From positions 12,262 to 49,222 of the forward strand of contig NZ_JABSOV010000024.1 in NCBI RefSeq assembly GCF_013215345.1: a stretch of DNA of 36,961 nt, given 5' to 3'. Source of the stretch: Colwellia sp. (GTDB lineage Bacteria; Pseudomonadota; Gammaproteobacteria; Enterobacterales; Alteromonadaceae). The notes under the pieces are model-generated. The model did no database searches. It saw nothing but the letters and a program-made list of their open reading frames with translations, and was not told the origin of the DNA. This document shows positions 2,344 through 23,401 of the stretch, in pieces (the first letter of the stretch is position 1; every line of letters begins with the position of its first letter). The translations under genes were made by a program, and so were the position numbers.

Positions 2344-2358
2344 TTTGCAGTTTGCAAC
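2344..2358. promoter_or_regulatory. GCA-N3-TGC dyad, candidate upstream activator site for the LruC gene
   Basis: TTTGCAGTTTGCAAC is a near-perfect dyad (TTTGCA-N3-TGCAAa). It lies 61 bases upstream of the candidate -24 element at 2420 and matches the dyads upstream of the polysaccharide blocks. Confidence 0.5.
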
Positions 2359-2419
2359 TGCCATTATCAAAAAAAAACAAAAAAAACCTAACTCACTGAT
2401 AAACGATACAAAAAAATAA

Positions 2420-2435
2420 CGGAACACTCCTTGCA
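2420..2435 (+). promoter_or_regulatory. Candidate sigma-54 promoter of the LruC gene
   Basis: CGGAACACTCCTTGCA has GG and GC ten bases apart, as sigma-54 requires. The -12 element TTGCA is perfect; the -24 element departs from TGGCAC at two positions. It would start transcription near 2447, about 80 bases before the gene at 2529. It is weaker than the site at 11798. Confidence 0.45.
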
Positions 2436-2444
2436 ATGCTTGTT

Positions 2445-2505
2445 AATAATCACAGTGTTACTAATTAAGGTATTAATAACCACGGTGACAATAACCATAG
2501 TATTA
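2445..2505 (+). repeat. Three imperfect short direct repeats in the leader of the LruC gene
   Basis: AATAATCACAGTGTTA (2445-2460), AATAACCACGGTGACA (2475-2490) and AATAACCATAGTATTA (2490-2505) share the pattern AATAAYCAYRGTRWYA. Each holds a small CAC(A/G)GTG-like dyad. They may be binding sites or chance. Confidence 0.4.
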
Positions 2506-2528
2506 AGAAACAATGCAGGGAGTTTTTT

Positions 2529-4628
2529 ATGATGTATTTAAAAAATATTCAGTGTGCTTTTATAGCTTCTTTTTTCAGTTTCTTGATACTTTATCACGGC
2601 TCTGTCACTGCTGCCCCTTTCGAAAGTTGCCCTTCTAAAGCGTTTCTAATGCAACAACAAGTCGCACAACTTTATGGGGTAAACCTAGTGACAGGGAATT
2701 ACTCGCTCTTATCTGGTGATTTAGGGACTAATGACAAAATAAACGCCATTGGTTTTAACTTTCATGATAATTACATTTATGGTTGGGGTTATGAATGGGG
2801 CACTTTAGTTCGCATTGGCGATGATTACCAAGCTACGCCTATTACCTTAGCCAACAATCCCGGAGTAAATTTTTATGTTGGTGATGTCGCACTCAATGAC
2901 AACAGCTATTATTTTTATAAAAAAGGCTCAGCATATGGTCTCTATAAGGTTTCTTTAGACGAACAATCTGTCGATTACCTTCAAGTCAGTAAAGTTATTG
3001 ATGGGCAATCCTTGTCGTTAAGCATTTATGATTTTGCTTTTCACCCCATCAATAACTTTCTTTACACCGTTGATAAAAATGGCCTACTACACCAAATAGA
3101 TGTAAATACCGGCATAGCAAATTCGCTAGGGAATGTCGGTGAACAAGGCACATTTGGCGCTATTTATTTTGATGTCGATGGCAAATTATATATCAGTCGA
3201 AATAGTGACGGTTATGTATTTATTATTGACGTGACTGACGCAAACCCAACCGCTACGTTATTCGCTTATGGCCCTAGTGCCTCACAAAATGATGGAGCCC
3301 GCTGTGCTGTGGCGCCGATTGTTGACGAGTCTATTCCCGCAACAGTGGATTATGGTGATGCCCCAGATAGTTATGGCACAACCTTGTTTAGTAACGGTGC
3401 TAGGCATAGCATAAGTGAACTGTATTTAGGCTCGAGTATAACCACTGAGCATAATGCCAATGTTTACCCTAAAACCGATGAAGATGACGGCATCGTTTTC
3501 TTAACCCCTTTATTAGCTGGTAGCGATAGTTTGATTCAAGTACAAGCAACAGGGGCTGGCTTTCTTAATATTTGGGGTGATTGGAATCGTGACGGTCAAT
3601 TTTCAGCCGATGAAAAGCTCATCACTGACAAGTTTTTAGAAAATACCACTGACGTTATTTTGGTCAATACACCTTTAACTGCCTTAAATGGCTTTACGTG
3701 GCTTAGAGCAAGATTTACCACCGTAGCTGCGGTTGCAGTCAGTGGTGGCGTATCTGACGGTGAAGTGGAAGACTACCGTGTTATCGTGACGAATTCAGGC
3801 AATAGTCAAATTCAAGATACCCCGTATTACCTTGCTTTTGAGGATAGTTGGCCTGAGCAAGGAGATTACGATATGAATGATGTGGTTATTTTACAAAATT
3901 CATCATTATTGTTAACCGATACCGGCCAAGTAAAACAAATAGAATTTCAAGGTGAAGTAAGAGCGTTAGGTGCCTCTTATCAAAATGGCTTTGCCATTCA
4001 ACTAGATAATATATTGCCTAGTAATGTCGATGCCAGCCTAGTGCGTTTTGAAATCAATGGTGTTTTGCAAGAGGTCAGTGCCATAGAAGAAGATATACAA
4101 TTTTTAGTGATTAATATTACTGATGATTTACGCAGTCACATTCAATTAACCCAAAACTGTTTATATTATCGAACGGAGAGTAATTGCAGTAACTCATCTT
4201 TGATGACCTTTAGCGTAACAGTGCCGTTTATCAGCCCCATTGCCCTTGAACAATTTCCAGAAGCTCCCTATAACCCCTTTATATTTGCTAAAGAAGGGAC
4301 TTACCATGGCGACCTTTTCTTTCATCCTGGTAGAGGACTAGAAGTTCACCTAAAAAATAAACTGCCAACATCTAAAGCGGATCTATCGTTGTTTGGCATG
4401 GCAGCAGACAGAACTCAACTAGATGGAGAAAATAAATATCAAACCAGCAACGGTTTACCCTGGGCACTGGCGATCAACCCTGGTTCACAAGAAGAATGGA
4501 AGCACCCCAGCGAAATGATTGACATTTTACATGCATACCCCGACTTTCAATTATTCATCGAAAGTAATGGTAATAATTCCAGCGACTGGTTTTCACAAAG
4601 TAATGCGGTTAATTCGAAATTGTATTAA
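2529..4628 (+). CDS. Secreted GEVED / LruC-domain protein
   Basis: A 699-residue exported protein. Residues 1-29 form a signal peptide (hydrophobic IASFFSFLILYHGSV, cleavage near TAA-APF). Residues about 35-265 look like a beta-propeller (repeated GVNLVTGNYSLL, LYKVSL and LHQIDVNTGIANSLG units, as in DUF6923). A GEVED domain spans about 274-420, opening with DYGDAPDSYGT, containing IWGDWNRDGQFSADE and closing with the hallmark GEVEDYRV at 411-418. A LruC-type domain follows from about 433 (YYLAFEDSWPEQGDYDMND). There is no GlyGly-CTERM or lipobox, so it is probably released or held by other surface factors. Start choice: CAGGGAG at about 2516-2522 precedes the ATG by six bases. Its promoter elements resemble those of the polysaccharide blocks, so a biofilm-matrix or surface role is a reasonable inference, not shown. 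Confidence 0.85.
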   Translation: MMYLKNIQCAFIASFFSFLILYHGSVTAAPFESCPSKAFLMQQQVAQLYGVNLVTGNYSLLSGDLGTNDKINAIGFNFHDNYIYGWGYEWGTLVRIGDDYQATPITLANNPGVNFYVGDVALNDNSYYFYKKGSAYGLYKVSLDEQSVDYLQVSKVIDGQSLSLSIYDFAFHPINNFLYTVDKNGLLHQIDVNTGIANSLGNVGEQGTFGAIYFDVDGKLYISRNSDGYVFIIDVTDANPTATLFAYGPSASQNDGARCAVAPIVDESIPATVDYGDAPDSYGTTLFSNGARHSISELYLGSSITTEHNANVYPKTDEDDGIVFLTPLLAGSDSLIQVQATGAGFLNIWGDWNRDGQFSADEKLITDKFLENTTDVILVNTPLTALNGFTWLRARFTTVAAVAVSGGVSDGEVEDYRVIVTNSGNSQIQDTPYYLAFEDSWPEQGDYDMNDVVILQNSSLLLTDTGQVKQIEFQGEVRALGASYQNGFAIQLDNILPSNVDASLVRFEINGVLQEVSAIEEDIQFLVINITDDLRSHIQLTQNCLYYRTESNCSNSSLMTFSVTVPFISPIALEQFPEAPYNPFIFAKEGTYHGDLFFHPGRGLEVHLKNKLPTSKADLSLFGMAADRTQLDGENKYQTSNGLPWALAINPGSQEEWKHPSEMIDILHAYPDFQLFIESNGNNSSDWFSQSNAVNSKLY

Positions 4629-4681
4629 CAAAGCAAAAACTAAACAATTTAAAACAAGACTAGCAACAAGGAATTCAAATT

Positions 4682-5164
4682 ATGAAAACTCATATCATTA
4701 CAGCTTTATTGTTAACACTGACACTGTTTGGTTGTGGCGATGACGATGGTACTGAGATAGTACAGGGTACAGTGCAGGAAACCCCTCCGCCAACCAGCAG
4801 CACAACCCCAGAGACCAATACAGACATTGTCGCCACCAGTGAGCTAATTAGCACGCCAGACTTTAACTTTATTTCCGGTACTAAGTTAACAGTAACCTTA
4901 CCTGTAGCTCCTACAGCAACTATCGATTACTTCATTAATATTTGCACAGACTTTACCAATGAAGATAATGTTATAACCATCAATTACCAAAGTTGTAAAT
5001 TAAGAACAGCCATCACCTCACAAACGCAAGAGTTTACTTTATCCTTAAGCGTGGTGGAGCTACAGTTAATAGCCCAAATTTGGCCAATGGAAAGTGACGC
5101 CAAAGTAATGAATGCTTACTGGGATATTGCTGAATCAGGCCATAACTGGCAAATAGTTTTTTGA
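4682..5164 (+). CDS. Small lipoprotein of unknown function
   Basis: A 160-residue protein with a lipoprotein signal: MKTHIITALLLTLTLFGC, lipobox LFGC with Cys18. An Asp-rich, then Thr/Pro-rich low-complexity linker follows to about residue 55 and probably tethers the rest. The remaining 105 residues are beta-rich with two cysteines (ICTDF, YQSCK) that could pair. No family was recognised. It starts 53 bases after the LruC gene with no terminator between, and AAGGAATT precedes the start, so the two are probably co-transcribed. The residue after Cys is Gly, so nothing indicates inner-membrane retention; outer-membrane anchoring is expected. Confidence 0.75.
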   Translation: MKTHIITALLLTLTLFGCGDDDGTEIVQGTVQETPPPTSSTTPETNTDIVATSELISTPDFNFISGTKLTVTLPVAPTATIDYFINICTDFTNEDNVITINYQSCKLRTAITSQTQEFTLSLSVVELQLIAQIWPMESDAKVMNAYWDIAESGHNWQIVF

Positions 5165-5168
5165 TAAA

Positions 5169-5340
5169 TACACCTGTTACCATTCAAATTTCAGGATTTC
5201 AGTAGGAATTAAAATAATTTTAGGCAAGGATAATATTTTAAGCATAGTCATTCTAGGCTTTGATTATTTAACCCGGTATAAAGTGATTTTAAACCTATCA
5301 AAGAAGCGCTTGAGCAACACGCATCTTTGATGGGTAAAGA
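5169..5340. repeat. Dispersed intergenic repeat, 3'-truncated copy
   Basis: This aligns with 2016 to about 2185 of the full copy. Shared blocks include GTTACCATTCAAA, GATTTCAGT, TTTAGGCAAGGA, GGTATAAAGT and GAAGCGCTTGAG. The inverted pairs are kept despite substitutions: ATCAAAGAAGCG can still pair with CGCATCTTTGAT. The distal inverted end seen at 2263-2279 was not found. Between this repeat and the promoter dyad at 5511 (5341-5510) nothing further was recognised. Confidence 0.75.
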
Positions 5341-5510
5341 TATTTACCCTTGAGTTATACCTCTACCCACGAAAATACCCTCCTGGTAGCAAGCCCATGA
5401 AAGATACTGAGTTAAGACCTTCTTGTTAGTATTTCCCTTGGTTTTCTTTAAAAAAATAGATTTTATCCCCTCATTCCCGCCCTATTTATCTACTCTAGCA
5501 ACTTAACCTA

Positions 5511-5525
5511 GTTGCATTTTGAAAA
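5511..5525. promoter_or_regulatory. Degenerate GCA-N3-TGC site upstream of the Wzz block
   Basis: GTTGCATTTTGAAAA matches the dyad with TGA in place of TGC. It overlaps the right arm of the inverted repeat GCAACT-N6-AGTTGC at 5498-5515 and lies 83 bases upstream of the candidate -24 element at 5609. Confidence 0.35.
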
Positions 5526-5608
5526 GCGTAACGCAAAAGCAATTCACAAACCGCTAACAAAAAGTAAAACAAAAAGAAAAAGAAACTTATTAACAACGAC
5601 TTACAATA

Positions 5609-5624
5609 TGGCTCATAACTTGAA
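5609..5624 (+). promoter_or_regulatory. Candidate sigma-54 promoter of polysaccharide block 1
   Basis: TGGCTCATAACTTGAA has the -24 TGGC and a -12 TTGA at correct spacing. The normally conserved GC of the -12 element is GA here, so the match is imperfect. TGGCTC is shared with the stronger site at 11798. Transcription would start near 5636, about 48 bases before the first gene. Confidence 0.45.
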
Positions 5625-5683
5625 TATATTAAGGTAAATAAGGTAAGAGTTAACATGTGTATCAATAGCGAAGGGGATAGCAG

Positions 5684-6142
5684 ATGAAAAGCATGCCATT
5701 AAATTGCATTTTTGTTATGACATTGCTTACTTGTACTGGCTGTATTTCGACCTCGATAAGTGACTCATTGGCCTTAATCGAACAAGAAGAAAACCGCGCC
5801 AACAATAAAGCCGTTAATAAAGAAGTTTTGACTAGTATCCAAGCGTTACGCTTTTCACAAAAGCTAGCCGAACAGCAGTACACTTTTAGCTATGATTTGC
5901 ATAATACCGAATTAAATTACGCGGATAAAATAAAAATCACCCGCCTAATAGTGAACAACAAACAAAGCATCACCATTAACATTGCGCCCGCTAAGGGCAC
6001 AAATATGCTCCATCAATTAGCACTTTCCATGGAGCGGGCTGAAGTACTGCGCCTGCATATTCGTCATTTTAATAACAAGATCACCATTAAGTTTGCTCCT
6101 AAGTTAGAAAACGACACTATTAACTTAGTTACTGGAGCCTAA
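5684..6142 (+). CDS. Small lipoprotein opening the polysaccharide operon
   Basis: A 152-residue protein with a lipoprotein signal (CIFVMTLLTCTGC, lipobox CTGC with Cys20). The body is mostly helical up to about residue 70. The C-terminal half has KITRLIVNNKQSITINIAP, a conserved-looking LHQLALSMERAEVLRLHI helix and ITIKFAPKL, a beta-alpha-beta pattern loosely like OmpA-type peptidoglycan-binding domains but lacking their NxxLSxxRA motif. No family was recognised. AGGGGA sits six bases before the ATG. It ends one base before the Wzz start, so it is the first gene of the Wzz-GT-GT-sugar-transferase operon and probably acts in the periplasm or outer membrane with polysaccharide export (inference). 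Confidence 0.75.
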   Translation: MKSMPLNCIFVMTLLTCTGCISTSISDSLALIEQEENRANNKAVNKEVLTSIQALRFSQKLAEQQYTFSYDLHNTELNYADKIKITRLIVNNKQSITINIAPAKGTNMLHQLALSMERAEVLRLHIRHFNNKITIKFAPKLENDTINLVTGA

Positions 6143-6143
6143 C

Positions 6144-7622
6144 ATGACGACATCAGTCATTATAAATATTCACCTTATTTTATCGGCGATATGGCGTCAT
6201 CGCTATTTAATTATATTTCCAGCAATAGCATTACCATTAATCGCGATAATTGCTTGTTTGATTGCTCCAAGAACGTGGCAAGCACACACCACAATATTGG
6301 TACAAGAAAGTGCCAAGATGAACCCTTTTCTTGAGGACTTATCAATATCCACTGATTTAGAAAATAGAATAACTACTTTAGATACCTTACTCCATAGTCG
6401 ACATATGTTAATTAATGTCGCGAAAGATTTAGCGCTAATCGATGAGCATTCAACAGACTTGCAAAAGGAGCAATTAGTTAAAAAGTTATCCGCGGCACTT
6501 AAAGTACAGTTAATCGGTAAAGATTTAGTAAAACTTGTTTACCAAACTGACTCACCCGAAAATATCATTGCTGTCCTACGGGTAGTTAGAGCAAGGTTTT
6601 TAGAAACGCTGTTAGCGCCTGAGTTATCCGCAATAGATGCGTCGGAATCATTTCTAAGCAGTCAATTAGCCTTAAAAATGGCCGACTTACAAGAATCTGA
6701 GTTTAGGTTGGCTAATTTCAAACAATACAATGCTGAGCACTTACCCAGACTTTATAGTGCAAATAGTAGTAGGTTCAGTCAATTAAGCATGTTATTCGAA
6801 CAGAAAAAAATTGAATTATCTGGTGCTATTGCCGCTAAAAGAACCATTCGTACTCGGCTTGCTCAAGTAGATCCGGTGATGAGTGAAATTGAACAAAGCA
6901 TAGTAAAAACCAAAAGCGAGCTAATTATTTTGCGTTCACGCTACACTGGACGACATAGCAAAGTACAAACAGCACTGAGGAAATTATCACAGCTTGAAGA
7001 TGAACGAGTAAACCAAAGCAAAGCATCATACAAGATAACCGAAGTGGATTTAAATCGTTTATGGGAAATAGCCAGTCGCATGCAAGATGGTGAAGTGGAT
7101 AACAATCAAAACTTATTATTAGTATCACAATTACAAGAATTACAATTTGCCGACAGTAACGTAGAAAAAATCAAAGAAGAGATTAACTCTATAGAGAAGC
7201 AAACCAAAATACTAAAAGCGTCTCTTGCTGGCACCGGTGAAATGGAAAGGCAACTGTTAGCGCTTGAAAGAGACCTTAAGGTTAAACGGGATTTATATAG
7301 TGATTTACTGTATCGATATGAAAAAGCAAAAATAACTGGCGCCCTTGGCAAGTTTGAACAACCAGAAAGAATAAAAATAATCGACGAGCCATACCAGCCT
7401 AGCTCGCCGACTAACTTCCCGCTTTATATATTTTTATTAGCCGGAATTATTGGCGGCATATGTTTAGGTGGCGGTTTAGCGCTATTCGCTGAGTTAGCTG
7501 ACACATCTATCCGTGCAAGATATCAACTAGAATTAATTACCTCGGCCCCAGTAATAACCCGGCTGCCACGAATTGGAGTAAAGCCTTTTTCAAGTATGAA
7601 AGACTTAGGAGAAGACTTATGA
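6144..7622 (+). CDS. Polysaccharide chain-length regulator (Wzz/GNVR family, SypO-like)
   Basis: A 492-residue inner-membrane protein. A first membrane segment at about 20-42 (LIIFPAIALPLIAIIACLI) is followed by the Wzz-type periplasmic start TWQAHTTILVQESAK. A long coiled-coil region spans about 160-390, with a GNVR-like stretch (LERDLKVKRDLYSDLLYRYEK). A second membrane segment lies at about 426-450 (FLLAGIIGGICLGGGLALF), preceded by a Pro-rich DEPYQPSSPTNFP. No ATPase domain is fused, so it would work with the separate CpsD-like protein at 15164. It controls polymer length in a Wzx/Wzy pathway. Its stop overlaps the next ATG by four bases, showing translational coupling. Confidence 0.9.
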   Translation: MTTSVIINIHLILSAIWRHRYLIIFPAIALPLIAIIACLIAPRTWQAHTTILVQESAKMNPFLEDLSISTDLENRITTLDTLLHSRHMLINVAKDLALIDEHSTDLQKEQLVKKLSAALKVQLIGKDLVKLVYQTDSPENIIAVLRVVRARFLETLLAPELSAIDASESFLSSQLALKMADLQESEFRLANFKQYNAEHLPRLYSANSSRFSQLSMLFEQKKIELSGAIAAKRTIRTRLAQVDPVMSEIEQSIVKTKSELIILRSRYTGRHSKVQTALRKLSQLEDERVNQSKASYKITEVDLNRLWEIASRMQDGEVDNNQNLLLVSQLQELQFADSNVEKIKEEINSIEKQTKILKASLAGTGEMERQLLALERDLKVKRDLYSDLLYRYEKAKITGALGKFEQPERIKIIDEPYQPSSPTNFPLYIFLLAGIIGGICLGGGLALFAELADTSIRARYQLELITSAPVITRLPRIGVKPFSSMKDLGEDL

Positions 7623-8713
7623 AACCCGTCATAGTTCATGTTGTACAACACTTAAAACCCGGTGGGATCGAAAGTTTTGCGCTAGAATTTCAGCGAGCTG
7701 CACAACCATTTTTTGATGTACATATTATTTCTTTAGAAAAACAAAACGTTAAATGTTATTGGAATAATATTGATGGCTTTAAAGAATTTATCCATATGTT
7801 AAATAAAAAACCCGGTTGGCAAGCCAATATTTTTACCCAATTAAAGCAATTCTTCGAAAAAGTTAAACCTATCTATGTACACACTCACCATATAGGGCCA
7901 TTAATCTATGGTGGCGTTGCAGCAAGACAGGCAAAGGTTGCTCATATTATACATACTGAGCATGATGCTTGGCATTTAGCCGATTTTAAAGCGAGATTAT
8001 TACAGAGGCTTATTGTCAGTTTGGTTCGTCCTATCTATGTAGCTGACGCTAACTTTGTTGCCGAGCAAGTTAACCGTTTAATGCCATCATTAAACCCAGT
8101 GGTCATCCCTAATGGTATCGATACTAATAAATTTAAACCTTCGACAGTGAGTAAGCGGCTGTTATTACAACAAGCGGGTCTGCCTGCAGAGTTGAAGTAT
8201 ATTGGTTGTGCCGCTAGACTAGAGTCAGTAAAGGCTCATGATGTATTAATAAAAGCTGTTCATAATCTGCCTAAAAATATTGGTTTATTACTCGCTGGCA
8301 CTGGCAGTTTAAAAGCAAAGTTACAGCAATTGGTCATTACGTTAAAATTAGAAAAAAGAGTTTTCTTTTTAGGTCATGTTGATGATATGACCACATTTTA
8401 CCCATTAATTGATGTTTTTTGTCTTTCCTCACATAACGAAGGACTCCCCTTGTCTCCTATGGAAGCCCAAGCCTGTGGAATACCTGCGGTATTAACCGAC
8501 GTTGGCGGCTGCAAAGAAGCCATCTGTAGTGTAACAGGTAGAGTTGTTCAAGCTAATAACCCGACATTGCTAGCGCAGGCCCTGCTAAGTTCACTAAACC
8601 AAAAAAGTCATTATTCACCGCGAATATTCATAGAAAAACAACGTTCTCTTGACCAGATGATTAAGCAATATGTTTCATTAACGCAAGCTGATTTAAGGTG
8701 TAAGCTATGTTAG
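7619..8713 (+). CDS. Glycosyltransferase family 4 (SypP-like)
   Basis: A 364-residue GT-B glycosyltransferase. The N-terminal domain begins with VVQHLKPGGIESFALEF, the glycine-rich acceptor-side loop. The C-terminal nucleotide-sugar domain has GCAARLESVKAHDVLIKA, LLAGTGSLKAKL and the EX7E motif in EGLPLSPMEAQACGIP. It transfers a sugar to the lipid-linked repeat unit on the cytoplasmic face of the inner membrane; donor and linkage cannot be read from sequence. It overlaps both neighbours (4 and 7 bases), so it lies inside a tight operon. Confidence 0.9.
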   Translation: MKPVIVHVVQHLKPGGIESFALEFQRAAQPFFDVHIISLEKQNVKCYWNNIDGFKEFIHMLNKKPGWQANIFTQLKQFFEKVKPIYVHTHHIGPLIYGGVAARQAKVAHIIHTEHDAWHLADFKARLLQRLIVSLVRPIYVADANFVAEQVNRLMPSLNPVVIPNGIDTNKFKPSTVSKRLLLQQAGLPAELKYIGCAARLESVKAHDVLIKAVHNLPKNIGLLLAGTGSLKAKLQQLVITLKLEKRVFFLGHVDDMTTFYPLIDVFCLSSHNEGLPLSPMEAQACGIPAVLTDVGGCKEAICSVTGRVVQANNPTLLAQALLSSLNQKSHYSPRIFIEKQRSLDQMIKQYVSLTQADLRCKLC

Positions 8714-9891
8714 ACATCATAATGGTATATATCTTAGCTATTGCTATATTTTTAGTCATTTATCACCATGTACTTTATCCGCTAGTACTCAAGAAAGTGA
8801 CTAAGAATAAGACAAACATTCCTCCTATCATTAAAAATCGTCACTATATTTTTAGTGCTGATGATAACAATTTAAATTGTTTTTCAATTATCATTCCTGC
8901 TTTTAATGAAGCTAAATTTATTGCCGATAAAATTAGAAATTTAAGTTTCATTGACTACCCAAACGATCGATTTGAATTAATTTTACTTTGTGACGGCTGT
9001 AGTGATGACACCCATAACATAGCTTCACAAACCCTTAATGAGCTTGCTTGTCTTGATTTAAACTACCAACTGGTAAACTTTAAAGATAATCGCGGTAAAG
9101 TTGCAGTGCTTAAAGATGGTGTCGCCAAAGCACAGTTTGACAATATTGTCTTTAGTGATGTCTCGGCATTATTACCGGTAAATAGCCTACTGATGTTAGA
9201 TAGTCATTTTAAAAATCCTGCTGTTGGTGCTGTTTCAGGCGGATATCAGTTTGTTAAAAAAGGCACCGTGGGTGAACAATACTACTGGCGCTATCAATCT
9301 ATGATTAAAGCAAGAGAAAGTTCTATTGCTAGTGTGCTTGGCGCTCACGGTGCTTTTTATGCACTCAGGAAGTCTTGTTATGAAGAGGTTCCTGCAGATA
9401 CTATTAATGATGACTTTTTAATCCCGATGAATGTCATTAAACTCGGCTATCGCGTGATATATGAGCCTAGAGTTGTTGCCATCGAACTTGAACAAGTTAA
9501 TTTGGAGCAAGATATGAGCAGGCGTTTAAGGATAGCAGCGGGAAATTTTCAGCAACTGGTCTATTTGTTACCTTTGTTATCACCCAAGTATGGCTGGAAT
9601 GCGATAAATTTCGCCTCTGGCAAAGCGTTAAGAGCAATCACGCCTTTTATTTTAGTGGTTATCTTTGTCAGTAATATTTATCTTGTCTCGGTTCACTATG
9701 TATTCTTATCACTATTTGTTTGCCAAGTTTTTTTATATAGCCTGGTTATGCTGATTAATTTATTCCATATATCACCTCAGTTAGCCGCATTAAAGCTAAT
9801 CTGCTATTTAGTTAATGGTTACTGGGTCGCCTTAAAGGGATCTTTAAAGTACATCTTCGGTTTACAAAAAAAGAATTGGACTAAAATATAG
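8707..9891 (+). CDS. Membrane glycosyltransferase family 2 (SypQ-like)
   Basis: A 394-residue GT-A enzyme with an N-terminal membrane helix (about 5-25) and two or three C-terminal helices (about 305-385). The catalytic core has FSIIIPAFNEAKFIADKI, CDGCSDDT, the DxD-equivalent VFSDVSA, GAHGAFYALRK and the acidic INDDFLIP that stands in for the usual ED motif. The Q/RxxRW region reads SRRLRIAAGNFQQL, with Trp replaced by Ile, as seen in non-processive relatives of NodC/BcsA. It probably adds one sugar at the membrane rather than spinning a polymer (inference). It sits between the GT4 and the initiating transferase. Confidence 0.88.
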   Translation: MLDIIMVYILAIAIFLVIYHHVLYPLVLKKVTKNKTNIPPIIKNRHYIFSADDNNLNCFSIIIPAFNEAKFIADKIRNLSFIDYPNDRFELILLCDGCSDDTHNIASQTLNELACLDLNYQLVNFKDNRGKVAVLKDGVAKAQFDNIVFSDVSALLPVNSLLMLDSHFKNPAVGAVSGGYQFVKKGTVGEQYYWRYQSMIKARESSIASVLGAHGAFYALRKSCYEEVPADTINDDFLIPMNVIKLGYRVIYEPRVVAIELEQVNLEQDMSRRLRIAAGNFQQLVYLLPLLSPKYGWNAINFASGKALRAITPFILVVIFVSNIYLVSVHYVFLSLFVCQVFLYSLVMLINLFHISPQLAALKLICYLVNGYWVALKGSLKYIFGLQKKNWTKI

Positions 9892-9899
9892 GTAATATT

Positions 9900-10541: not shown

Positions 10542-10643
10542 TATCACTTTCATACTGTTTTTGACCTTGTTGTGCACTGATAAAATAAATAAGGGCAAGA
10601 CAGTCGATTAAGTAATAATTTAGCGAAGCGGATATAACACCAC

Positions 10644-11710: not shown

Positions 11711-11725
11711 TTCGCAATTTGCATT
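11711..11725. promoter_or_regulatory. GCA-N3-TGC dyad, candidate upstream activator site for the STAS block
   Basis: TTCGCAATTTGCATT lies 72 bases upstream of the strong -24/-12 site. It agrees at all but one fixed position with the SypG-box as I recall it from V. fischeri (TTCTCANNNTGC followed by D, W, N). Confidence 0.55.
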
Positions 11726-11797
11726 CTATTTTGCCTTCCTGTTAAGTTACACGGTTCCCACCACAACTAGTCAGTTGATAAATATGAATATTTTTAT

Positions 11798-13046: not shown

Positions 13047-13056
13047 GGAATTGACC

Positions 13057-15162: not shown

Positions 15163-15163
15163 T

Positions 15164-15876: not shown

Positions 15877-16833
15877 TTATTCATTAAAATCAAGCTGAGT
15901 TTTTATCGCATAATGATCTGACCAGTTAAACTTGTTCATCCGTTGTCGAGCACAAATTCTTGCTGGCTTTGACACCCATAAATGGTCAAGGGCTAAAGCA
16001 AAGAAAGGAGAAATATAACGCTTATTCGGCCATGAATTGACAAATTTTGTATTCATACCCTGCCTTAAAGTATTTATTCTATTTGAATGTGTAGAAAGGT
16101 TTAAATCACCTATCACTAATGAGTGTTTTCCGGTTGATTTTTTAAGCGCGTCTTTAAGTTGGTACAAGGTTTTATTTCGAATTTGCCAAAGCGCATCATT
16201 ACGTGGTGAAGGTGGGTGTAAGCTGTGCAAACTGAGAGTAGTAAAAGGTAGTTGCCATCGACTCGATATTAAAAATGAACGGTGGCCATTTTTATAATAG
16301 TTAATATTAGTAAAGGCATAACGACTAAACAGTAGCTGGTCACTAAAAACTTGCTGACGATGACTTTCTCCCCGAATAAAATAAGGATAATGAGGACTTA
16401 AGTGTTCAATCAATTGCAGCTTTGACTGCTGACTGACGCCTTGTAAGGCAATTAAATGATATTTCTCTGCAATGAGGTGCTCTATTAAGGGCATTAACTC
16501 GTCGTCCGCTGCATGGTACTTAATGTTGAATTGAAAAATAGTAATACGGTCAACACAGGTATTATTATTGAATATTACGCTATGACTTAATGTGACCAAA
16601 TTATTTAAGCAAAGTGCTAAAATAAAATTAGCCAACAAATAAATAAAGCACTGTTGAAAAGAAATAAAATAGATAAGCGCCAACATCAATACTAAATAAA
16701 TAAGCAAGATAGTAAAGGGTGTTGAAGCCGCATTTTCAAGCCACCAAGGAGAGTGAGCCTGCCGCATTAAATACCAAATCAGGCTAGGTAACAATATAAG
16801 TATGGAGGTAATCACTAGCCTTGTTTCTATCAA
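15877..16833 (-). CDS. Membrane-anchored endonuclease/exonuclease/phosphatase-family protein, catalytic Glu replaced
   Basis: A 318-residue protein with two or three N-terminal membrane helices (about 8-25, 38-57 and 60-85) and an EEP domain facing the periplasm. Family motifs are visible: FNIKYH (Asn103), HSLHPPSP (His206), GDLNLS (Asp243, Asn245), LDHLWVS (Asp283, His284) and WSDHYAIKTQL (Asp306, His307). The metal-binding Glu, normally in LQEV, is Gly132 in LQGVSQ. So the fold is clear, but activity may be reduced or altered. It is the only minus-strand gene inside the polysaccharide locus, convergent with the CpsD-like gene. Relatives act on nucleic acids, phospholipids or phosphoesters; the substrate is unknown. 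Confidence 0.82.
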   Translation of the reverse strand: MIETRLVITSILILLPSLIWYLMRQAHSPWWLENAASTPFTILLIYLVLMLALIYFISFQQCFIYLLANFILALCLNNLVTLSHSVIFNNNTCVDRITIFQFNIKYHAADDELMPLIEHLIAEKYHLIALQGVSQQSKLQLIEHLSPHYPYFIRGESHRQQVFSDQLLFSRYAFTNINYYKNGHRSFLISSRWQLPFTTLSLHSLHPPSPRNDALWQIRNKTLYQLKDALKKSTGKHSLVIGDLNLSTHSNRINTLRQGMNTKFVNSWPNKRYISPFFALALDHLWVSKPARICARQRMNKFNWSDHYAIKTQLDFNE

Positions 16834-17006: not shown

Positions 17007-17021
17007 AATGCATATTGCGAT
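17007..17021. promoter_or_regulatory. GCA-N3-TGC dyad, candidate upstream activator site for block 3
   Basis: AATGCATATTGCGAT has the shared core and lies 52 bases upstream of the candidate -24 element at 17074. Confidence 0.45.
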
Positions 17022-17073
17022 TAATTATGCGCTATAACTCAGTCAGAGTCTTAGTAAAGCCGTATTTTAAACT

Positions 17074-17089
17074 GGCTTACTTTATGCAG
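17074..17089 (+). promoter_or_regulatory. Candidate sigma-54 promoter of polysaccharide block 3
   Basis: TGGCTTACTTTATGCA has -24 TGGC and -12 ATGCA with exact GG-to-GC spacing. The start of transcription would be near 17101, about 24 bases before the gene at 17125. Confidence 0.6.
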
Positions 17090-17124
17090 ATTCAAGATAT
17101 AATACCTTTGATAATAGGTTTTCC

Positions 17125-18165
17125 ATGACAACAGATAATCTAAACATAGCGTTACTGCTCGATAGTAAAGATTATGGTGGCATAGAAACTCATGTTGCTA
17201 ACCTTGCCAAAGGTCTGCATAAATCAGGTCATAGTGTACAAATTATTTTATTGAACAACTATGGTGAGCACCCCGTTTTTGAATCTGAGCAATTCCTTCG
17301 CTCAATACTGATAAAATTAGACGGTGGTCTTAAATCAGTCTTTACCTTTTTAAAAAAGTCAAATATTAATCTAGTGCACACCCATGGCTATAAAGCTGGG
17401 ATTATTGGTAGAATCAGCTGTAAATTAACCAACAAAGCGGTCGTTTCTACCTTTCATTCAGGCGAGAAAGGCAATATTAAAATTAGGCTATATTCATGGC
17501 TTGACCGTATAACGGCTCATTTCTCCCCCTGTATTTGTGTATCTGAACAAATCAAAAAATCAGTCAACTTAAGCGCCGACGTGATCCAAAATTTTGTTGA
17601 GCTGCCGACTCAGTCATTAACAACAACTACGCCAGCAACGAAAATAGCGTTTGTCGGTCGCTTAAGTTTTGAGAAAGGTCCTGATGTATTTCTTCGTCTT
17701 GCCAAGCAATTACCCCAGTACAGTTTTTCAATCTATGGCGATGGCCCCATGTCTGAGGAGATAAGCGCTACTGCGTCTGACAACGTGGAAATGGCGGGGC
17801 AAGTAACATCTATGCTGCCACACTGGCCAAAGATAAACCTGTTATGTATTACCAGTAGAGAAGAAGGTTTGCCGCTCGTTGCCATTGAAGCACTTGTGCG
17901 GGGAATTCCTGTTATTAGTTTTGATATTGGTGGCATCTCATCCGTGGTAATCAATGATCTTAGTGGCTGGTTAATAGCACCATTTAATGAAGCTGCCTTT
18001 ATTGAGTCCATCAAACAGGGTCAGACATTATCAAGAACACAACGAAGTAAAATGTCCTTATTTGGCTATTTACATATTAGAAATAATTTTTCTTGTAACG
18101 CGGTTATTCCTCAGATTTTCAATGTTTACCGCAAAGCGTTAATAGGGGCGTCACATGTTAAATAG
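17125..18165 (+). CDS. Glycosyltransferase family 4
   Basis: A 346-residue GT-B enzyme. Motifs in order: LLLDSKDYGGIETHVANLA (acceptor loop), LVHTHGYKAGIIGR, VSTFHSGEKG, ICVSEQIK, KIAFVGRLSFEKGPDVFLRL (start of the donor domain), YGDGPMSEEI and EX7E in EGLPLVAIEALVRGIPVIS. It adds a sugar to the lipid-linked repeat unit in the cytoplasm; donor unknown. It is the first gene after a candidate sigma-54 promoter, in the position of sypI/sypJ-type transferases, and overlaps the flippase start by 11 bases. Confidence 0.9.
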   Translation: MTTDNLNIALLLDSKDYGGIETHVANLAKGLHKSGHSVQIILLNNYGEHPVFESEQFLRSILIKLDGGLKSVFTFLKKSNINLVHTHGYKAGIIGRISCKLTNKAVVSTFHSGEKGNIKIRLYSWLDRITAHFSPCICVSEQIKKSVNLSADVIQNFVELPTQSLTTTTPATKIAFVGRLSFEKGPDVFLRLAKQLPQYSFSIYGDGPMSEEISATASDNVEMAGQVTSMLPHWPKINLLCITSREEGLPLVAIEALVRGIPVISFDIGGISSVVINDLSGWLIAPFNEAAFIESIKQGQTLSRTQRSKMSLFGYLHIRNNFSCNAVIPQIFNVYRKALIGASHVK

Positions 18166-19465
18166 TCGATATAAAAGCCTATTAAACCAATCGGCACTTT
18201 ATGGCCTCAGTATTTTTCTTATGAAAGGTATTGCTTTAATTATGCTGCCTATTTATACCAGTTATCTAACACCAGCAGATTATGGCCGCCTAGAGGTGCT
18301 GGTGATATTTTCTAATATCGCCTGTATTGTTTTAGGTTTTGGTTTGGTTGAAGCATTATATCGTTTTGTCGGTTTAGCGGATGGCATAGAAAAAAAGCAA
18401 CGTCATGCGGCAGAATGTTTATTAGTGGCCGGCATCATTGGTATTATTTCATATACAACTTTCCATTTTTATGCCAAAGATTTACTGCCTTATTTACCGG
18501 GAAAAATCAGCGAAAATGAACTCTATTTACTCGGCATAGCACTTTCTGTAGAAGGCTTAATTAATATTCCATTAACTTGGTTACGGATCACTGAACGAGC
18601 AGGATTATTTTTCGTCATTACGATGTTGAAAGTATTGTTGCAGGTTTCACTGACTTTTTATTGGTTGATTAATGGCTGGGGTATCACCAGCATTTTAGCC
18701 GCTGGGGCGGTGTCCTCAGTCGTTGTTGCAATTATTTTATGTATTATTCAATTAAAAGAAACCCCCATCAGCTTCTCAATAAAACACCTTAAAAGCATAA
18801 TATATTATGCTGGACCCATTTTTATTGGTGGTGCAGCTACTTTTACCTTGTCGGGCATGGACAGGTGGTTACTGGCCGAACATTTTGGTGCCACAGAAAT
18901 TGCTGCCTATGCCATAGCAATCAAGTTCGCCTTAGTCCCTACCCTACTTATTCAGCCTTTTACTTTATGGTGGTTTCCTAAGCGGTTTTCGGTGCTTAAA
19001 GAGCATGATGGTAAAAATATAAATGCACACTTTGCTGTACTCGGTGCCATTATTTCCGTACTTATGTGTGGTGGCCTTGGCCTATTAGGACCGTTATTAA
19101 TTCAAACTTTAACACCTGTAGATTACCACTCAGCTATTGGAATTTTACCTTGGCTACTGCTTTGCACCTTGTTAAAGATGTTATCCGATTTGTTAAACCT
19201 TGGTTGTTTCGTTGAAAAAAACTCTCAGCTACAAATGAACATTAACCTAGTGGCCTGTGGCTTTGGTGGGCTTTTATTGATCGTCTTGGTGCCACTATTT
19301 ATGGTGGCAGGAGCTCTAGCAGCACTCATTATTGCTAATGCCATACGTATGGGACTTTTCTATTACTTCAGTCAAAAGAAAGTCTACCTGCCCTACAAGT
19401 TTGGTTATTTATATCCGGCAATCAGCGCCGCAATTGTCGCCACCTGGTTTGGGCAAATTAGCTAA
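18155..19465 (+). CDS. Polysaccharide flippase (Wzx-like, MOP superfamily; SypK-like)
   Basis: A 436-residue integral membrane protein with about 12 predicted helices. Its opening NQSALYGLSIFLMKGIALI, then PIYTSYLTPADYGRLEVL, is the characteristic start of oligosaccharide flippases (polysaccharide synthesis protein family). A central amphipathic GMDRWLLAEHFGATEIAAYA is also typical. It carries the finished lipid-linked repeat unit across the inner membrane. It is coupled to the upstream GT4 and followed eight bases later by the polymerase. Confidence 0.9.
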   Translation: MLNSRYKSLLNQSALYGLSIFLMKGIALIMLPIYTSYLTPADYGRLEVLVIFSNIACIVLGFGLVEALYRFVGLADGIEKKQRHAAECLLVAGIIGIISYTTFHFYAKDLLPYLPGKISENELYLLGIALSVEGLINIPLTWLRITERAGLFFVITMLKVLLQVSLTFYWLINGWGITSILAAGAVSSVVVAIILCIIQLKETPISFSIKHLKSIIYYAGPIFIGGAATFTLSGMDRWLLAEHFGATEIAAYAIAIKFALVPTLLIQPFTLWWFPKRFSVLKEHDGKNINAHFAVLGAIISVLMCGGLGLLGPLLIQTLTPVDYHSAIGILPWLLLCTLLKMLSDLLNLGCFVEKNSQLQMNINLVACGFGGLLLIVLVPLFMVAGALAALIIANAIRMGLFYYFSQKKVYLPYKFGYLYPAISAAIVATWFGQIS

Positions 19466-19473
19466 GGCAGCTT

Positions 19474-20823
19474 ATGACTTATTCTCCTTTAAGTATGGTG
19501 CTTATGTTAATGCTAACAACATTCGCGCTATACTTTTTCCCACACCCAATAATCCTCATTATGATAGGGTTAATTCCCTTTGCCCTATGGGGTATGGTCA
19601 ACTTCTCATTTTATATTGTTTTAAGCTTTGTCATCTTTTCATTTTTCCGCATCCATGAAGTTTTTCCTTTTTTAGAGCCACTAAAATTGCCTTTATTACT
19701 GGCGTTAGCGGCACTATTTGTTGTTTTTTTACGTGCAACAATCAGTAAAAATCTTCACCCTTATTGGTGTCCGCAATTTACCTTATTAATACTCTTCTTT
19801 TTACTGATAACACTTGCGATTCCCTTTGCCAGCAACGTCGGTGTGGCGACAAATGCTTGGACCGGGGTTTACAGCAAAATTATATTAATGACCTTTGTTA
19901 TTGCCTGGATGATGCGACACGAAAGCCACTTTATCACCGCCAGTCGGGTATTTATTTTTGCTGGCGCCTGTGTTGGTCTGGTTGCCATATCAAACAAGCT
20001 TAATGGTATTGGTTTAGTTGAAGGCACTCGGGTCACTATAGGCCGAGACGTAGGCTCTTTACTTGGCGACCCAAATGATTTGGCCTTGGTACTTTTGTAC
20101 CCCATGGCCTTCGCTATAGCTACTTTTCTAGAGAAATCACTTTCAAGGTTTGAACGACTCTTTAGTTTTAGTACTTTTTGTATTTTATTTTATGCCCTAC
20201 TAGCCACTCAAAGCAGGGGTGGCTTGTTGGGTTTTTTAGCGGTAGCAAGCATATTCGCCTATAACCGCATTCGATCCAAAGTTTTATTATTTTCAGGGGC
20301 AGCGTTTTCTCTAATAATTTTATTTGTTGTTGCCGGCATCAGCAAAAGATCATCAGGCGGCGCTGCAGAAGCAGGCATAGATGAATCAGCAATGGGGAGA
20401 CTATATGCCTGGGAGGCCGCTTGGAATATGGCACTAGATAACCCCATTTTCGGCGTAGGCATTAGTAATTTTTATTACAATTACTTTTTTTATAGCACCC
20501 ATTGGGATGGATTAAACCATGCCGTACATTCCACCTGGTTTGGTGTACTGGCTGAATCTGGTTTTGTTGGTTTTATGCTGTTCGTTGCGCTAATTGTCAG
20601 CACATTATTGATGTCTTTAAAAATGCTGAAAACAATCAAGGTTGAACATCATACTCCAGGCATACGAGTCGCCTTGAATGCTGCGCCAGCAGGAATTATT
20701 GGTTTTATCGTTTCTGGAACATTTTTAACGCAAGGATTTCTTTGGCCAATCTATTTGCAAGTGGCTTTAGTTATCGCTTTAAACAGGTATCTTTACTACA
20801 CAAATGACTCGATAAAATCCTAA
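19474..20823 (+). CDS. O-antigen polymerase/ligase family protein (Wzy_C; SypL-like)
   Basis: A 449-residue integral membrane protein with about ten helices. The Wzy_C domain is marked by ATQSRGGLLGFLAVA, the periplasmic loop AMGRLYAWEAAWNMALDNP, then IFGVGISNFY, and HAVHSTWFGVLAESGFVGF, where the conserved Arg, Gly-rich and His positions of ligases/polymerases lie. It joins repeat units on the periplasmic side, as polymerase or as ligase; sequence alone does not separate these. Position after the flippase in a Wzx/Wzy locus favours polymerase. Confidence 0.88.
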   Translation: MTYSPLSMVLMLMLTTFALYFFPHPIILIMIGLIPFALWGMVNFSFYIVLSFVIFSFFRIHEVFPFLEPLKLPLLLALAALFVVFLRATISKNLHPYWCPQFTLLILFFLLITLAIPFASNVGVATNAWTGVYSKIILMTFVIAWMMRHESHFITASRVFIFAGACVGLVAISNKLNGIGLVEGTRVTIGRDVGSLLGDPNDLALVLLYPMAFAIATFLEKSLSRFERLFSFSTFCILFYALLATQSRGGLLGFLAVASIFAYNRIRSKVLLFSGAAFSLIILFVVAGISKRSSGGAAEAGIDESAMGRLYAWEAAWNMALDNPIFGVGISNFYYNYFFYSTHWDGLNHAVHSTWFGVLAESGFVGFMLFVALIVSTLLMSLKMLKTIKVEHHTPGIRVALNAAPAGIIGFIVSGTFLTQGFLWPIYLQVALVIALNRYLYYTNDSIKS

Positions 20824-20863
20824 AAAACAAACTGCAATGTGTAGCAAACTAGAGGAAGTGAAT

Positions 20864-22201
20864 ATGTCTGATACTATCGCACAAGGTAAAGGGGTTAAGC
20901 CGCAGGTTTTATATGTTCATTACGGTGATAACTGGCTCAGAGGCAGTGAAATAGTTTTATTAGACTTACTTAAATCTGCTAAAGACAACCATTACGCCCC
21001 AGTACTTTGGTGTAATAGTGAAGTACTAGCAAAAAAAGCAACCGATTTAGGTGTGGAAGTCATCATTGATAACTTCGTTTGCCTTGCTTACTGGACCCTA
21101 CCTCGATGGAATTTCGGTCATTTTTTCAAATTACTTATTAAAGCTAAAAAATTAATAAAAGATTATAAAATTTCTTTAGTGCATTGTAACAATGGTGCCC
21201 CCTGCCAGTGGATGGTACCTATTTGTAAAATGACAGCTACGCCTTTATTGCTACATTTGCATGCACGCTATATGTATAGAGACAGATTAACATTATTGTT
21301 TCATGGCGCTGATAGCATTATCGGTGTTAGCCAGTCAGTCACCAAACTCTTCAAAGACAATGAATTTAACACTCAACAGGTGAGTACTATCTATAACGGT
21401 ATTGAGCCACAGCGAGTGCATTGTTCTTCGCCTCGAGATATTAGAGCTGAACTATCAGCCAAAAAAAATGACTTTGTTATATTATATATGGGTTCATTAA
21501 TCCCTAGAAAGTCAGTGTCTCAATTACTGTATGCTGTTGAGAAATTAAAAAATAATTATCAAATAAAACTTGCCATTGTTGGCTCAGGCAGTGAAGCAGC
21601 CAAATTAACTCATTTGGTTGCTCAATTGGCCTTAACTCATCACGTTAAATTTTTTGCCGCGAGCGATAAAGTGGCAGAAATATACTCTAGTAATGCCGAT
21701 TGTTTCATTTCTGTGCCAAGCGAAGAGGTTTTTGGTTTAACGCTGGCCGAGGCAAGTATTGCCAAGTTACCCATCATTACCAGTAATATCCCTGGCATTA
21801 ATGAAATATATACCGACCAGGAAAATGCCTTATTAATCTCACCAAACAATATTGACCAGCTCGTTAGCGCAATAAAGACCTTAATTGAAAAACCATGTTT
21901 AACAAAGAAGCTCGCTGAAAATGCACACAAACATATAGTAAAAACATTCTCGGTAAAGCGACAGTTTATTGCTTTCAACCTTGCTTATCAAAGCTTGTTG
22001 CTGGCGGAAAACCAGCTCAGTGTTAGCCTAGTGCTTAACTCACACGCTAAAATATTATTAACAGCCTGTTTAAGCAAAGTCTTCACTAAGGTAATGACTA
22101 AAGTTATGGCTACCCCCTTAACTAACGCCTTAGCGAACTCCTTAACCAAAGGCTATAAGCACTTGCTGTTGAAGTTTTCATGGGGGAAAAGTCATGACTA
22201 A
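20864..22201 (+). CDS. Glycosyltransferase family 4
   Basis: A 445-residue GT-B enzyme. Motifs: VLYVHYGDNWLRGSEIVLLD (acceptor loop), LVHCNNGAPCQW, LHLHARYMYRDR, IIGVSQSVTKLF, YNGIEP, ILYMGSLIPRKSVSQLLYAV and EX7E in EVFGLTLAEASIAKLPIIT. A 70-residue C-terminal extension (about 375-445) beyond the usual GT4 fold is rich in Leu, Thr and Lys and ends amphipathic; its role is unknown. The ATG at 20864 is preferred because AGAGGAAG ends six bases upstream; an earlier in-frame ATG at 20837 lacks such a site. It overlaps the next gene by eight bases. Confidence 0.88.
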   Translation: MSDTIAQGKGVKPQVLYVHYGDNWLRGSEIVLLDLLKSAKDNHYAPVLWCNSEVLAKKATDLGVEVIIDNFVCLAYWTLPRWNFGHFFKLLIKAKKLIKDYKISLVHCNNGAPCQWMVPICKMTATPLLLHLHARYMYRDRLTLLFHGADSIIGVSQSVTKLFKDNEFNTQQVSTIYNGIEPQRVHCSSPRDIRAELSAKKNDFVILYMGSLIPRKSVSQLLYAVEKLKNNYQIKLAIVGSGSEAAKLTHLVAQLALTHHVKFFAASDKVAEIYSSNADCFISVPSEEVFGLTLAEASIAKLPIITSNIPGINEIYTDQENALLISPNNIDQLVSAIKTLIEKPCLTKKLAENAHKHIVKTFSVKRQFIAFNLAYQSLLLAENQLSVSLVLNSHAKILLTACLSKVFTKVMTKVMATPLTNALANSLTKGYKHLLLKFSWGKSHD

Positions 22202-23309
22202 ACGTGTATTAATTTATGATCCTGTGCCTTTTAAGGGCGGCTCAAAAACAGTGATGAAAACAATCATCGCTGAATTACCTAGCAGTATTGAGGTATGGGT
22301 AATTTCAAATGACAAAGACTCATGGTGTGACGACTGCGACGTTAATGTGCACTTCGTGCCCTTGTTTTCTCCTCGTTACCTGCAAAATAAAACCACCGGT
22401 ATACTTTACTTTATCGAGCACTTTATTTATTTAGTCTCTTTGTTAGTTAATATGATAAAACTTAAAAGATTTAGCAAAATAATCGGCTTTTCCGGGCCGT
22501 GTGTTGATTTTTCTTTATACCTACTCACTTCAATAATTAACATAGACATTATTCAGCTTATTCAAGGTAATATTACTGACTCTAGAGTTTCATCTTTCGG
22601 TTTAAGACGAGCCAAGCAAGTGTTTTATTTACCCTCCACTCATACCTCAATTTTACGCGCCTTAAAATGCCATAGTCATAATGAAAACATAGCAGACCAT
22701 AAATTTATGACTTTTGTTAATGGTATTAACTGCTCAACTATAAAAGTAAAAGAACCTAGTAATAAAAATAACGATAAAGTAGGTTTTTTATGGGCCGCCT
22801 CTCTATTAAAATGGAAGCGAGTAGAACTGTTTATCGCTGCAATGGTCAAGCTAAATAGTAGCTATAAAGACCTAGATAAATTTTTTGCCAGTGTTTGCTA
22901 TATTGAGCCAAAAACTGATGCTTATATAGAGGTAGCTAACCTTGATAAGGCTGATAATATTTACTGGTATTCGGACCCTAATAATCTAAATGATATTAGG
23001 GCAAGTTCATCCGTGTTTATCTCTACTGCAGAAGGTGAACCTTTTGGCCTGTCAATTTTAGAATCAATGGCTGCAGGACTCGCCATCGTAATTCCCGCTG
23101 ATAATGCTTACTGGGATCAACACCTAACGGACGGATTCGATTGTGTAAAATATGATCCTAATAAGTTGGAAAGTTTAGTGAGCGCTTTAACTCGACTAGT
23201 CAATGAACCCAATTTTTTATTAAAAATTTCTCAACAAGCTAAACTTTCCGCGCAACAATATTGCCATTTACGTTGCTATTCTCATATTCTCAAATGCATT
23301 CCTAATTAG
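22194..23309 (+). CDS. Glycosyltransferase family 4 (divergent)
   Basis: A 371-residue GT-B-like protein. It begins VLIYDPVPFKGGSKTVMKTI, a Gly-rich acceptor loop, followed by a hydrophobic stretch (about 65-85) and ending in a donor domain with VGFLWAASLLKWKRVELFI and EX7E in EPFGLSILESMAAGLAIVIP. The middle differs from the other GT4s of the locus, so donor or acceptor probably differs too. It is the last gene of block 3 and is followed by a 132-base gap holding the next promoter. Confidence 0.85.
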   Translation: MTKRVLIYDPVPFKGGSKTVMKTIIAELPSSIEVWVISNDKDSWCDDCDVNVHFVPLFSPRYLQNKTTGILYFIEHFIYLVSLLVNMIKLKRFSKIIGFSGPCVDFSLYLLTSIINIDIIQLIQGNITDSRVSSFGLRRAKQVFYLPSTHTSILRALKCHSHNENIADHKFMTFVNGINCSTIKVKEPSNKNNDKVGFLWAASLLKWKRVELFIAAMVKLNSSYKDLDKFFASVCYIEPKTDAYIEVANLDKADNIYWYSDPNNLNDIRASSSVFISTAEGEPFGLSILESMAAGLAIVIPADNAYWDQHLTDGFDCVKYDPNKLESLVSALTRLVNEPNFLLKISQQAKLSAQQYCHLRCYSHILKCIPN

Positions 23310-23319
23310 CAAAATCGTC

Positions 23320-23334
23320 TTTGCAAAATGCAAA
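23320..23334. promoter_or_regulatory. Perfect TTTGCA-N3-TGCAAA dyad, candidate activator site for the glmS block
   Basis: TTTGCAAAATGCAAA is a perfect dyad and the cleanest copy of the motif in the window. It lies 51 bases upstream of the -24 element at 23386. Confidence 0.55.
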
Positions 23335-23385
23335 GTAAAAAGATGAATACCTATCAAGTTTTTGAATTTATTGGTTATATATTTA

Positions 23386-23401
23386 TGGTCTGATAACTGC
23401 A
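23386..23401 (+). promoter_or_regulatory. Candidate sigma-54 promoter of polysaccharide block 4
   Basis: TGGTCTGATAACTGCA has TGG at -24 and TGCA at -12, with GG and GC ten bases apart. Transcription would start near 23413, about 29 bases before glmS. Confidence 0.55.

Follow-up and report, generated by a model that had tools for sequence, protein, structure and literature searches.

The window analysed here, a 37 kb stretch of contig C157 from the 4.24 Mb draft genome of a Colwellia strain, holds what its gene content identifies as a Colwellia exopolysaccharide (EPS) locus of syp type, with five predicted sigma-54 promoters that would all stand under one activator, the response regulator encoded at position 497. 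Genes resembling sypA, B, C, D, O, P, Q and R, as well as wzx/wzy-like genes, are all present together, as judged from Pfam domains and from tblastn order in relatives, the syp gene order being used for comparison. The locus runs from the regulator through an LruC-domain protein, Wzz, glycosyltransferases, an initiating sugar transferase and a CofD/YvcK-like protein to a STAS/OmpA/SLBB set with a sypD-like gene, a Wzx/Wzy set, and GlmS with an acyltransferase; it ends with kinase and periplasmic binding protein genes on the opposite strand:

497–1945, forward strand: sigma-54 response regulator, proposed activator (Pfam Response_reg, Sigma54_activat and HTH_8; AAA+ domain with GAFTGA, Fis-type helix-turn-helix, HTH)
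2529–5164, forward strand: block 1, LruC-domain protein and small protein, lipoprotein-like N-terminus (TIGR04456; DUF4842/GEVED in Pfam); no family match for the small protein
5684–11555, forward strand: block 2, small lipoprotein-like protein, Wzz, two glycosyltransferases, sugar transferase (sypO–R-like), CofD/YvcK-like protein (Pfam)
11851–15859, forward strand: block 3, STAS protein (sypA-like), OmpA protein (sypB-like), SLBB export protein (sypC-like), nucleotide-binding protein (sypD-like, weak Pfam match)
17125–23309, forward strand: block 4, glycosyltransferase, Wzx, Wzy, two glycosyltransferases
23442–27209, forward strand: block 5, GlmS, hexapeptide acyltransferase, glycosyltransferase
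27370–29163, reverse strand: histidine kinase (weak HAMP match, HisKA, HATPase), proposed partner of the regulator; adjoins the binding-protein gene in relatives
29216–30445, reverse strand: periplasmic binding protein (Peripla_BP_6), proposed signal receptor; co-occurs with the regulator

Five predicted promoters and their upstream boxes

A -24/-12 element precedes each of the five blocks, 52–109 bases ahead of the ATG of its first gene, just as the initial annotation had proposed. That annotation also assigned a GCA-N3-TGC dyad to every promoter, which holds exactly at four of them (2347, 11714, 17010 and 23323) and fails at 5511, where the site is GCATTTTGA, a GCA-N3-TGA. Boxes and promoters are arranged as follows:

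2344–2358, forward strand: box 1, TTTGCAGTTTGCAAC, GCA 74 bp ahead of GG; phylogenetic footprint across Colwellia loci
2420–2435, forward strand: -24/-12 promoter 1, CGGAACACTCCTTGCA, before the LruC-domain gene
5511–5525, forward strand: box 2, GTTGCATTTTGAAAA, degenerate GCA-N3-TGA, 96 bp ahead of GG
5609–5624, forward strand: -24/-12 promoter 2, TGGCTCATAACTTGAA, GA at -12; TGGC kept in 8/8 aligned loci, -12 being TGA or TGT
11711–11725, forward strand: box 3, TTCGCAATTTGCATT, 85 bp ahead of GG; GCAATTTGCA identical in 7/7 aligned loci
11798–11813, forward strand: -24/-12 promoter 3, TGGCTCGATCATTGCT, before the sypA-like gene
17007–17021, forward strand: box 4, AATGCATATTGCGAT, 64 bp ahead of GG
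17073–17088, forward strand: -24/-12 promoter 4, TGGCTTACTTTATGCA
23320–23334, forward strand: box 5, TTTGCAAAATGCAAA, 64 bp ahead of GG; the genome's only zero-mismatch TTTGCA-N3-TGCAAA
23386–23401, forward strand: -24/-12 promoter 5, TGGTCTGATAACTGCA

The box consensus of the locus is TTGCA-WWW-TGCRA, and alignment of the Colwellia upstream regions displays conserved islands at the box and at the promoter. Across all 8 aligned Colwellia-type loci, box 2 reads GCA-N3-TRA (TGA in three, TAA in five) and sits in a longer block, GCATWTTRAAAWGC, exact in 7 of the 8. By this alignment the fifth site is conserved, yet it is not the same dyad, having only half of the motif. Upstream of promoters 1 and 2 lie two similar non-coding stretches of approximately 200 bases (2020–2282 and 5168–5400), which to the eye resemble copies of one repeat element. 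Another dyad is found ahead of the regulator gene:

418–432, strand not assigned: GCA-N3-TGC present there in 6/7 aligned Colwellia loci

No -24/-12 element was seen at this dyad (approx. position 420) on inspection by eye only, and sigma-54 autoregulation at 420 was accordingly set aside; the dyad perhaps serves autoregulation of the regulator.

The dyad alone is not rare, with 11 exact copies of GCA-N3-TGC in the window, and TTGCA-N3-TGCAA with at most two mismatches is rarer than in shuffles (18 versus a mean of 35.45). It is the position of the dyad, not its presence, that is special. Indeed, the check proposed with the initial annotation, namely co-occurrence of both motifs upstream of genes, gave a dyad with a sigma-54 element at 55–125 bp for 4 of 13 gene heads in the window versus 1 of 181 control heads (Fisher p = 6e-5). 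The control consisted of 387 kb of stretches from the same genome and included contig C69, since a genome-wide scan had already matched there; the single positive control head is on this contig. Genome-wide, the combined pattern was matched 19 times versus 8 times for a reversed control pattern, so that single matches are not proof. Five of the 19 fall in the window's contig (four of them ahead of blocks, the fifth on the opposite strand, where it overlaps box 5), one is intergenic before a gene on C69, and one on C199 ends at the start codon of an open reading frame (ORF). The seven others that were inspected are contained in ORFs of 70 aa or more, and five more matches are on C1, C5, C27, C212 and C218.

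The match on C69 is the one further clear intergenic box/promoter pair found outside the locus: a gene there (L213, 485–1192 and the region upstream) has a pair of overlapping boxes and a sigma-54-like element ahead of it. Its product, P0002, displays by eye a signal-peptide-like start and a PEP-CTERM-like tail and has no NCBIfam match; no exosortase for it was matched in this genome, which is 95.5% complete.

Relatives were drawn from 147 family genomes, in 20 of which, the window's own included, the SLBB protein located the locus; the other 19 were used (set 1), two of them as short contigs. When every pair of 3-base half-sites with gaps of 0–12 was ranked (832 combinations), GCA-N3-TGC came first, at 46 of 71 promoter-like sites, the window's five included, versus 42 of 1211 coding sites. 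Around regulator orthologues (set 2), the corresponding values are 40/68 versus 13/891 in coding sequence, and 33/59 versus 12/738 once four duplicate records are dropped and distances restricted to 55–125 bp. Each unit has a -24/-12 element ahead of it, and an upstream box recurs among the units more often than chance allows, in exact form at four promoters of the five. Sequence thus gives good support to the earlier proposal that a syp-like polysaccharide locus outside the Vibrionaceae forms a single sigma-54 regulon.

Helical phase and IHF-like sites

Two features go beyond the initial annotation, namely a helical phasing of the dyad-to-promoter distance and a site resembling that of integration host factor (IHF) approximately 31 bp upstream of -24. 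The GCA-to-GG distances in the window are 64, 64, 74, 85 and 96 bp, the last of them measured from box 2, which is degenerate; at 10.5 bp these five give R 0.98 (p approx. 0.008). In relatives, 105 distances, counted without the window itself, four duplicated records and a stretch of G135, peak at approximately 63, 75, 85, 97 and 108 bp, with a best period of 11.2 (R 0.59) and R 0.49 at 10.5. With repeats removed, 98 distances are left and none of 100000 jitters reaches the observed R; coding-control dyads show no phase (R 0.12–0.16, n = 65), and set 1 alone, each distance counted once per genus (46 distances), gives R 0.39 at 10.5 (p approx. 0.001). Such a phase rule is already known for LuxO enhancers, as a study of 61 Vibrio qrr enhancers reports steps of approximately 11 bp in looping length (PMC4740811).

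Between box and promoter, the following sites were found in the window:

2389–2401, forward strand: IHF-like site of promoter 1, TAACTCACTGATA, 9/9 positions, 32 bp ahead of GG
5579–5591, forward strand: IHF-like site of promoter 2, 7/9 positions, 31 bp ahead of GG
11768–11780, forward strand: IHF-like site of promoter 3, TAGTCAGTTGATA, 8/9 positions, 31 bp ahead of GG
17043–17056, forward strand: IHF-like site of promoter 4, weak, 6/9 positions
23355–23367, forward strand: IHF-like site of promoter 5, CAAGTTTTTGAAT, 8/9 positions, 32 bp ahead of GG

The full consensus, which we take to be YAANNNNYTGATW, occurs between box and promoter at 28 of 78 boxed promoters (the window's included) versus 1.15 expected under a Markov model, 16 of the matches lying at exactly 31 bp ahead of GG. 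Outside the window, matches of at least 7/9 at 30–32 bp are present at 48 of 74 boxed promoters, versus 2–9 at six other offsets. The genome encodes one RpoN and three proteins of the IHF/HU family (PF00216).

A candidate path from sensor to promoter

The initial annotation pointed to the nearby response regulator as the activator, and it is indeed the likeliest one, as strongly inferred from its DNA-binding residues. Among the 18 PF00158 matches of this genome, 12 are strong (enhancer-binding proteins); the HTH of the regulator (GNIPKAAAMLEVSPSTIYRKKL, residues 459–480) is identical to that of LuxO at 16 of 22 positions and keeps 10 of 11 LuxO-critical residues, whereas none of the other 11 in the strong set keeps more than 7. 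The critical residues were taken from an alanine scan of the LuxO recognition helix (PMC11407668). The nearest named relatives of the regulator are from Colwellia (93% identity in sp. ALOHA_DT_125; 84–87% in C. psychrerythraea, C. piezophila and C. marinimaniae).

We consider it probable that the binding protein, the kinase and this regulator activate the five EPS promoters through IHF-assisted looping. The binding protein (29216–30445) and the histidine kinase (27370–29163) would most likely sense an extracellular signal, and the kinase would most likely phosphorylate the regulator, whose LuxO-like recognition helix would bind the LuxO-type box. With the DNA bent by IHF at the site approximately 31 bp upstream of -24, the regulator, placed on one helical face of the promoter, would contact the sigma-54 polymerase and bring about promoter opening. 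What sequence statistics establish are the boxes, their pairing with the -24/-12 elements, the helical phase, the IHF-like sites and the joint occurrence of binding protein and regulator; phosphorylation of the regulator, its binding, the action of IHF and activation are inferred.

The first steps of this path are suggested by gene distribution. Of 147 genomes, 9 have the binding protein at 60% identity or more and 7 have the regulator at 65% or more; the 7 are all among the 9 (Fisher p = 1.4e-10, for genomes that are not independent). In all 12 distinct binding-protein loci inspected, the kinase gene adjoins the binding-protein gene (in G013, by short matches only). However, the promoters and boxes could be real and the regulator be fed by another kinase, the binding protein and its kinase serving something else, which we regard as unlikely, though the strongest of the alternatives. 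Gene order cannot reveal kinase specificity, and kinase and regulator stand at opposite ends of the locus in the window, in G124-type loci and in G135; on the other hand, the binding protein accompanies the regulator in 7/7 regulator genomes, and in G048, L122, L123 and L127 the kinase and binding-protein genes adjoin the regulator gene itself. A signal path from binding protein and kinase to regulator is plausible on this distribution.

Several points weigh against the proposed activation by sensor, regulator and IHF. G013 and G025 have the binding protein without the regulator at the cut-off, and the G013 kinase is recognized by short matches only. At the promoters, box 2 has no second half-site, and the exact dyad is missing before the LruC gene in L120 and L121 and at promoter 2 in most loci. 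No promoter-like site of the scored set belongs to G006, G064, G073 or G090, and 0/6 of those of G019 are boxed, a genome in which one boxed element lies outside the scored set and half-sites were also seen. The best period in relatives is closer to 11 than to 10.5, and the related promoters entering the phase statistics are not independent. Concerning IHF, the site of promoter 4 is weak, the three PF00216 proteins may be IHF or HU, and the consensus also precedes 9 of the 52 promoter-like sites that have no box (coding sites, 46 of 2102), so that the IHF-like site may to some extent belong to these promoters in general. Finally, the matrix used for sigma-54 elements has approximate weights.

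Comparison with LuxO, SypG and H-NOX systems

The initial annotation saw kinship with SypG of Vibrio fischeri and with its box, which the comparison does not support: the boxes of the window, TTGCA-WWW-TGCRA, agree with the LuxO box TTGCAWWWTGCAA (PMC10162802, PMC3352281 and PMC11443567) rather than with the SypG box TTCTCANNNTGMDWN (Ray et al. 2013, as cited in PMC10162802); the right half of box 2, TGA, would fit the TGM of the latter. By its letters, the box is that of Vibrio LuxO.

A SypG orthologue controlling the locus as in V. fischeri is improbable. The syp-type gene set with its syp-like order, the sigma-54 promoters ahead of the blocks, and the GCA half-site shared with the upstream activating sequence where V. 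fischeri SypG acts on qrr1, its activity depending on the C and A of that half-site (PMC10162802), are common ground. However, regulator clade, sensor and preferred box differ, and the Colwellia locus includes LruC-domain, CofD-like and GlmS genes. In a tree of 41 rows, with group labels assigned by ourselves, the window-type regulators form one clade (18 rows, 100/97) beside the regulators of H-NOX loci, whereas those encoded beside sypD in relatives form a separate clade (12 rows, 100/98); in G074, G133 and G105 a receiver–kinase–regulator stretch follows sypD, ahead of the next glycosyltransferase gene, and the window lacks such a stretch. Orthology with SypG was rejected on this position outside the sypD-linked clade, a verdict resting on synteny because the named V. 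fischeri SypG is not among the rows. In a plasmid collection in which a named SypG was sought, the best 30 of 284 matches carry generic or NtrC/ZraR names.

Control by a true LuxO quorum-sensing circuit, with LuxU and Qrr, is more doubtful still. LuxO is both the best NCBIfam match of the regulator and its top solved-structure match, and the Vibrio LuxO/qrr enhancers share with Colwellia the box TTGCAWWWTGCAA, the recognition helix, sigma-54 and looping steps of approximately 11 bp. However, the score of 390 bits is far below the equivalog cut-off of 800 bits, which led us to reject true LuxO identity, and the LuxO helix is missing from all 11 of the remaining strong enhancer-binding proteins. 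Moreover, the Colwellia targets are EPS and matrix-protein operons, not small RNAs, and the IHF-like site at a fixed place sets them apart. The regulator appears to act as a reader of LuxO-type enhancers, yet it is neither LuxO nor, on this evidence, SypG. Short motifs that abound in AT-rich intergenic DNA could also have paired by chance: the dyad is indeed common, and some genomic matches of the combined pattern are fortuitous. However, the position-specific pairing at gene heads, the relatives, the phase and the IHF position contradict this reading so clearly that a chance origin or generic palindrome was ruled out.

The closest relatives of the regulator outside its clade (49–53% identity) belong to H-NOX nitric-oxide loci, with which the locus also shares a kinase 38–44% alike over the matched parts, a receiver-HD gene adjoining the regulator, and the same phased boxes. 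Divergent from the regulator lies such a receiver-HD gene, of which L115 has an intact orthologue, and the H-NOX locus of L130 shows the same arrangement; at 1–308 of the window and at the L057 end, a string of Ns in the draft contig interrupts the gene. Two differences stand out: the sensor there is an H-NOX protein, and in nine such genomes (G001, G027, G030, G056, G071, G103, G112, G119 and G143) the target promoters are divergent and no syp genes were found in the fetched stretches. Since all nine syp-less loci have boxed sigma-54 promoters near the regulator (9/9), together with an H-NOX gene (9/9), the box goes with the regulator type and not only with polysaccharide genes. The H-NOX group is weakly supported in the tree (71/61), and L129, one of its seven rows, has no H-NOX gene in its short contig; regulator relatives at 55–57% occur on other contigs of G029 and G073. 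In L130 (4251–6540) and like loci (G001, G027, G030, G056, G071, G103, G119 and G143), phased boxes lie between divergent sigma-54 promoters and are common to both, in the vicinity of genes for H-NOX, kinase and regulator, and one side in L130 encodes a DUF1194/VWA protein; a neighbour in L130 resembles NosR (320 bits, below the cut-off of 400).

The sensors, too, are distributed without overlap. Among syp-type loci, an H-NOX gene is present in the fetched stretches of seven relatives (G016, G035, G049, G074, G085, G105 and G133) and the binding protein in the window, G135, G061, G095 and G124, and no fetched stretch of such a locus has both. Descent of the module from an H-NOX-type module with an exchanged sensor is suggested, not proven, by this distribution and by the shared receiver-HD neighbour. 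Related wiring is described for V. fischeri, where the HnoX-controlled kinase HahK feeds SypG (PMC12369376), and for the Shewanella HnoK/HnoC/HnoD system, in which the branches from an H-NOX-linked kinase lead to two proteins, one a transcription factor and the other an HD-domain regulator (PMC6335343). Among the matches listed from open-licence literature, no title concerns this locus or the control of syp-like genes in Colwellia.

It is quite possible, and we advance it tentatively, that a rigid enhancer code (phased LuxO box, sigma-54 element, and an IHF site approximately 31 bp upstream of -24) persisted through an exchange of the regulator reading it, a regulator of the H-NOX branch, rewired from H-NOX to the binding protein and kinase, having taken over the Colwellia syp-type locus from the sypD-linked regulator of other genera. 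If so, the promoters and activator grammar of biofilm loci could outlast the regulator, and a new sensor could be plugged in without change of target promoters. Box, phase, IHF site and -24/-12 element would then amount to a computable rule by which the whole regulon could be sought in vibrios and in relatives of Colwellia, and the binding protein would be a candidate receptor of an extracellular signal for slime production in cold and deep-sea bacteria.

Within the locus, an endonuclease/exonuclease/phosphatase-family gene (15877–16833, other strand) occupies the place after sypD that holds receiver, kinase and regulator in some relatives. The presence of a YvcK/CofD-like gene (10644–11555) and of a GlmS copy (23442–25238) hints at an amino-sugar supply for the polymer.

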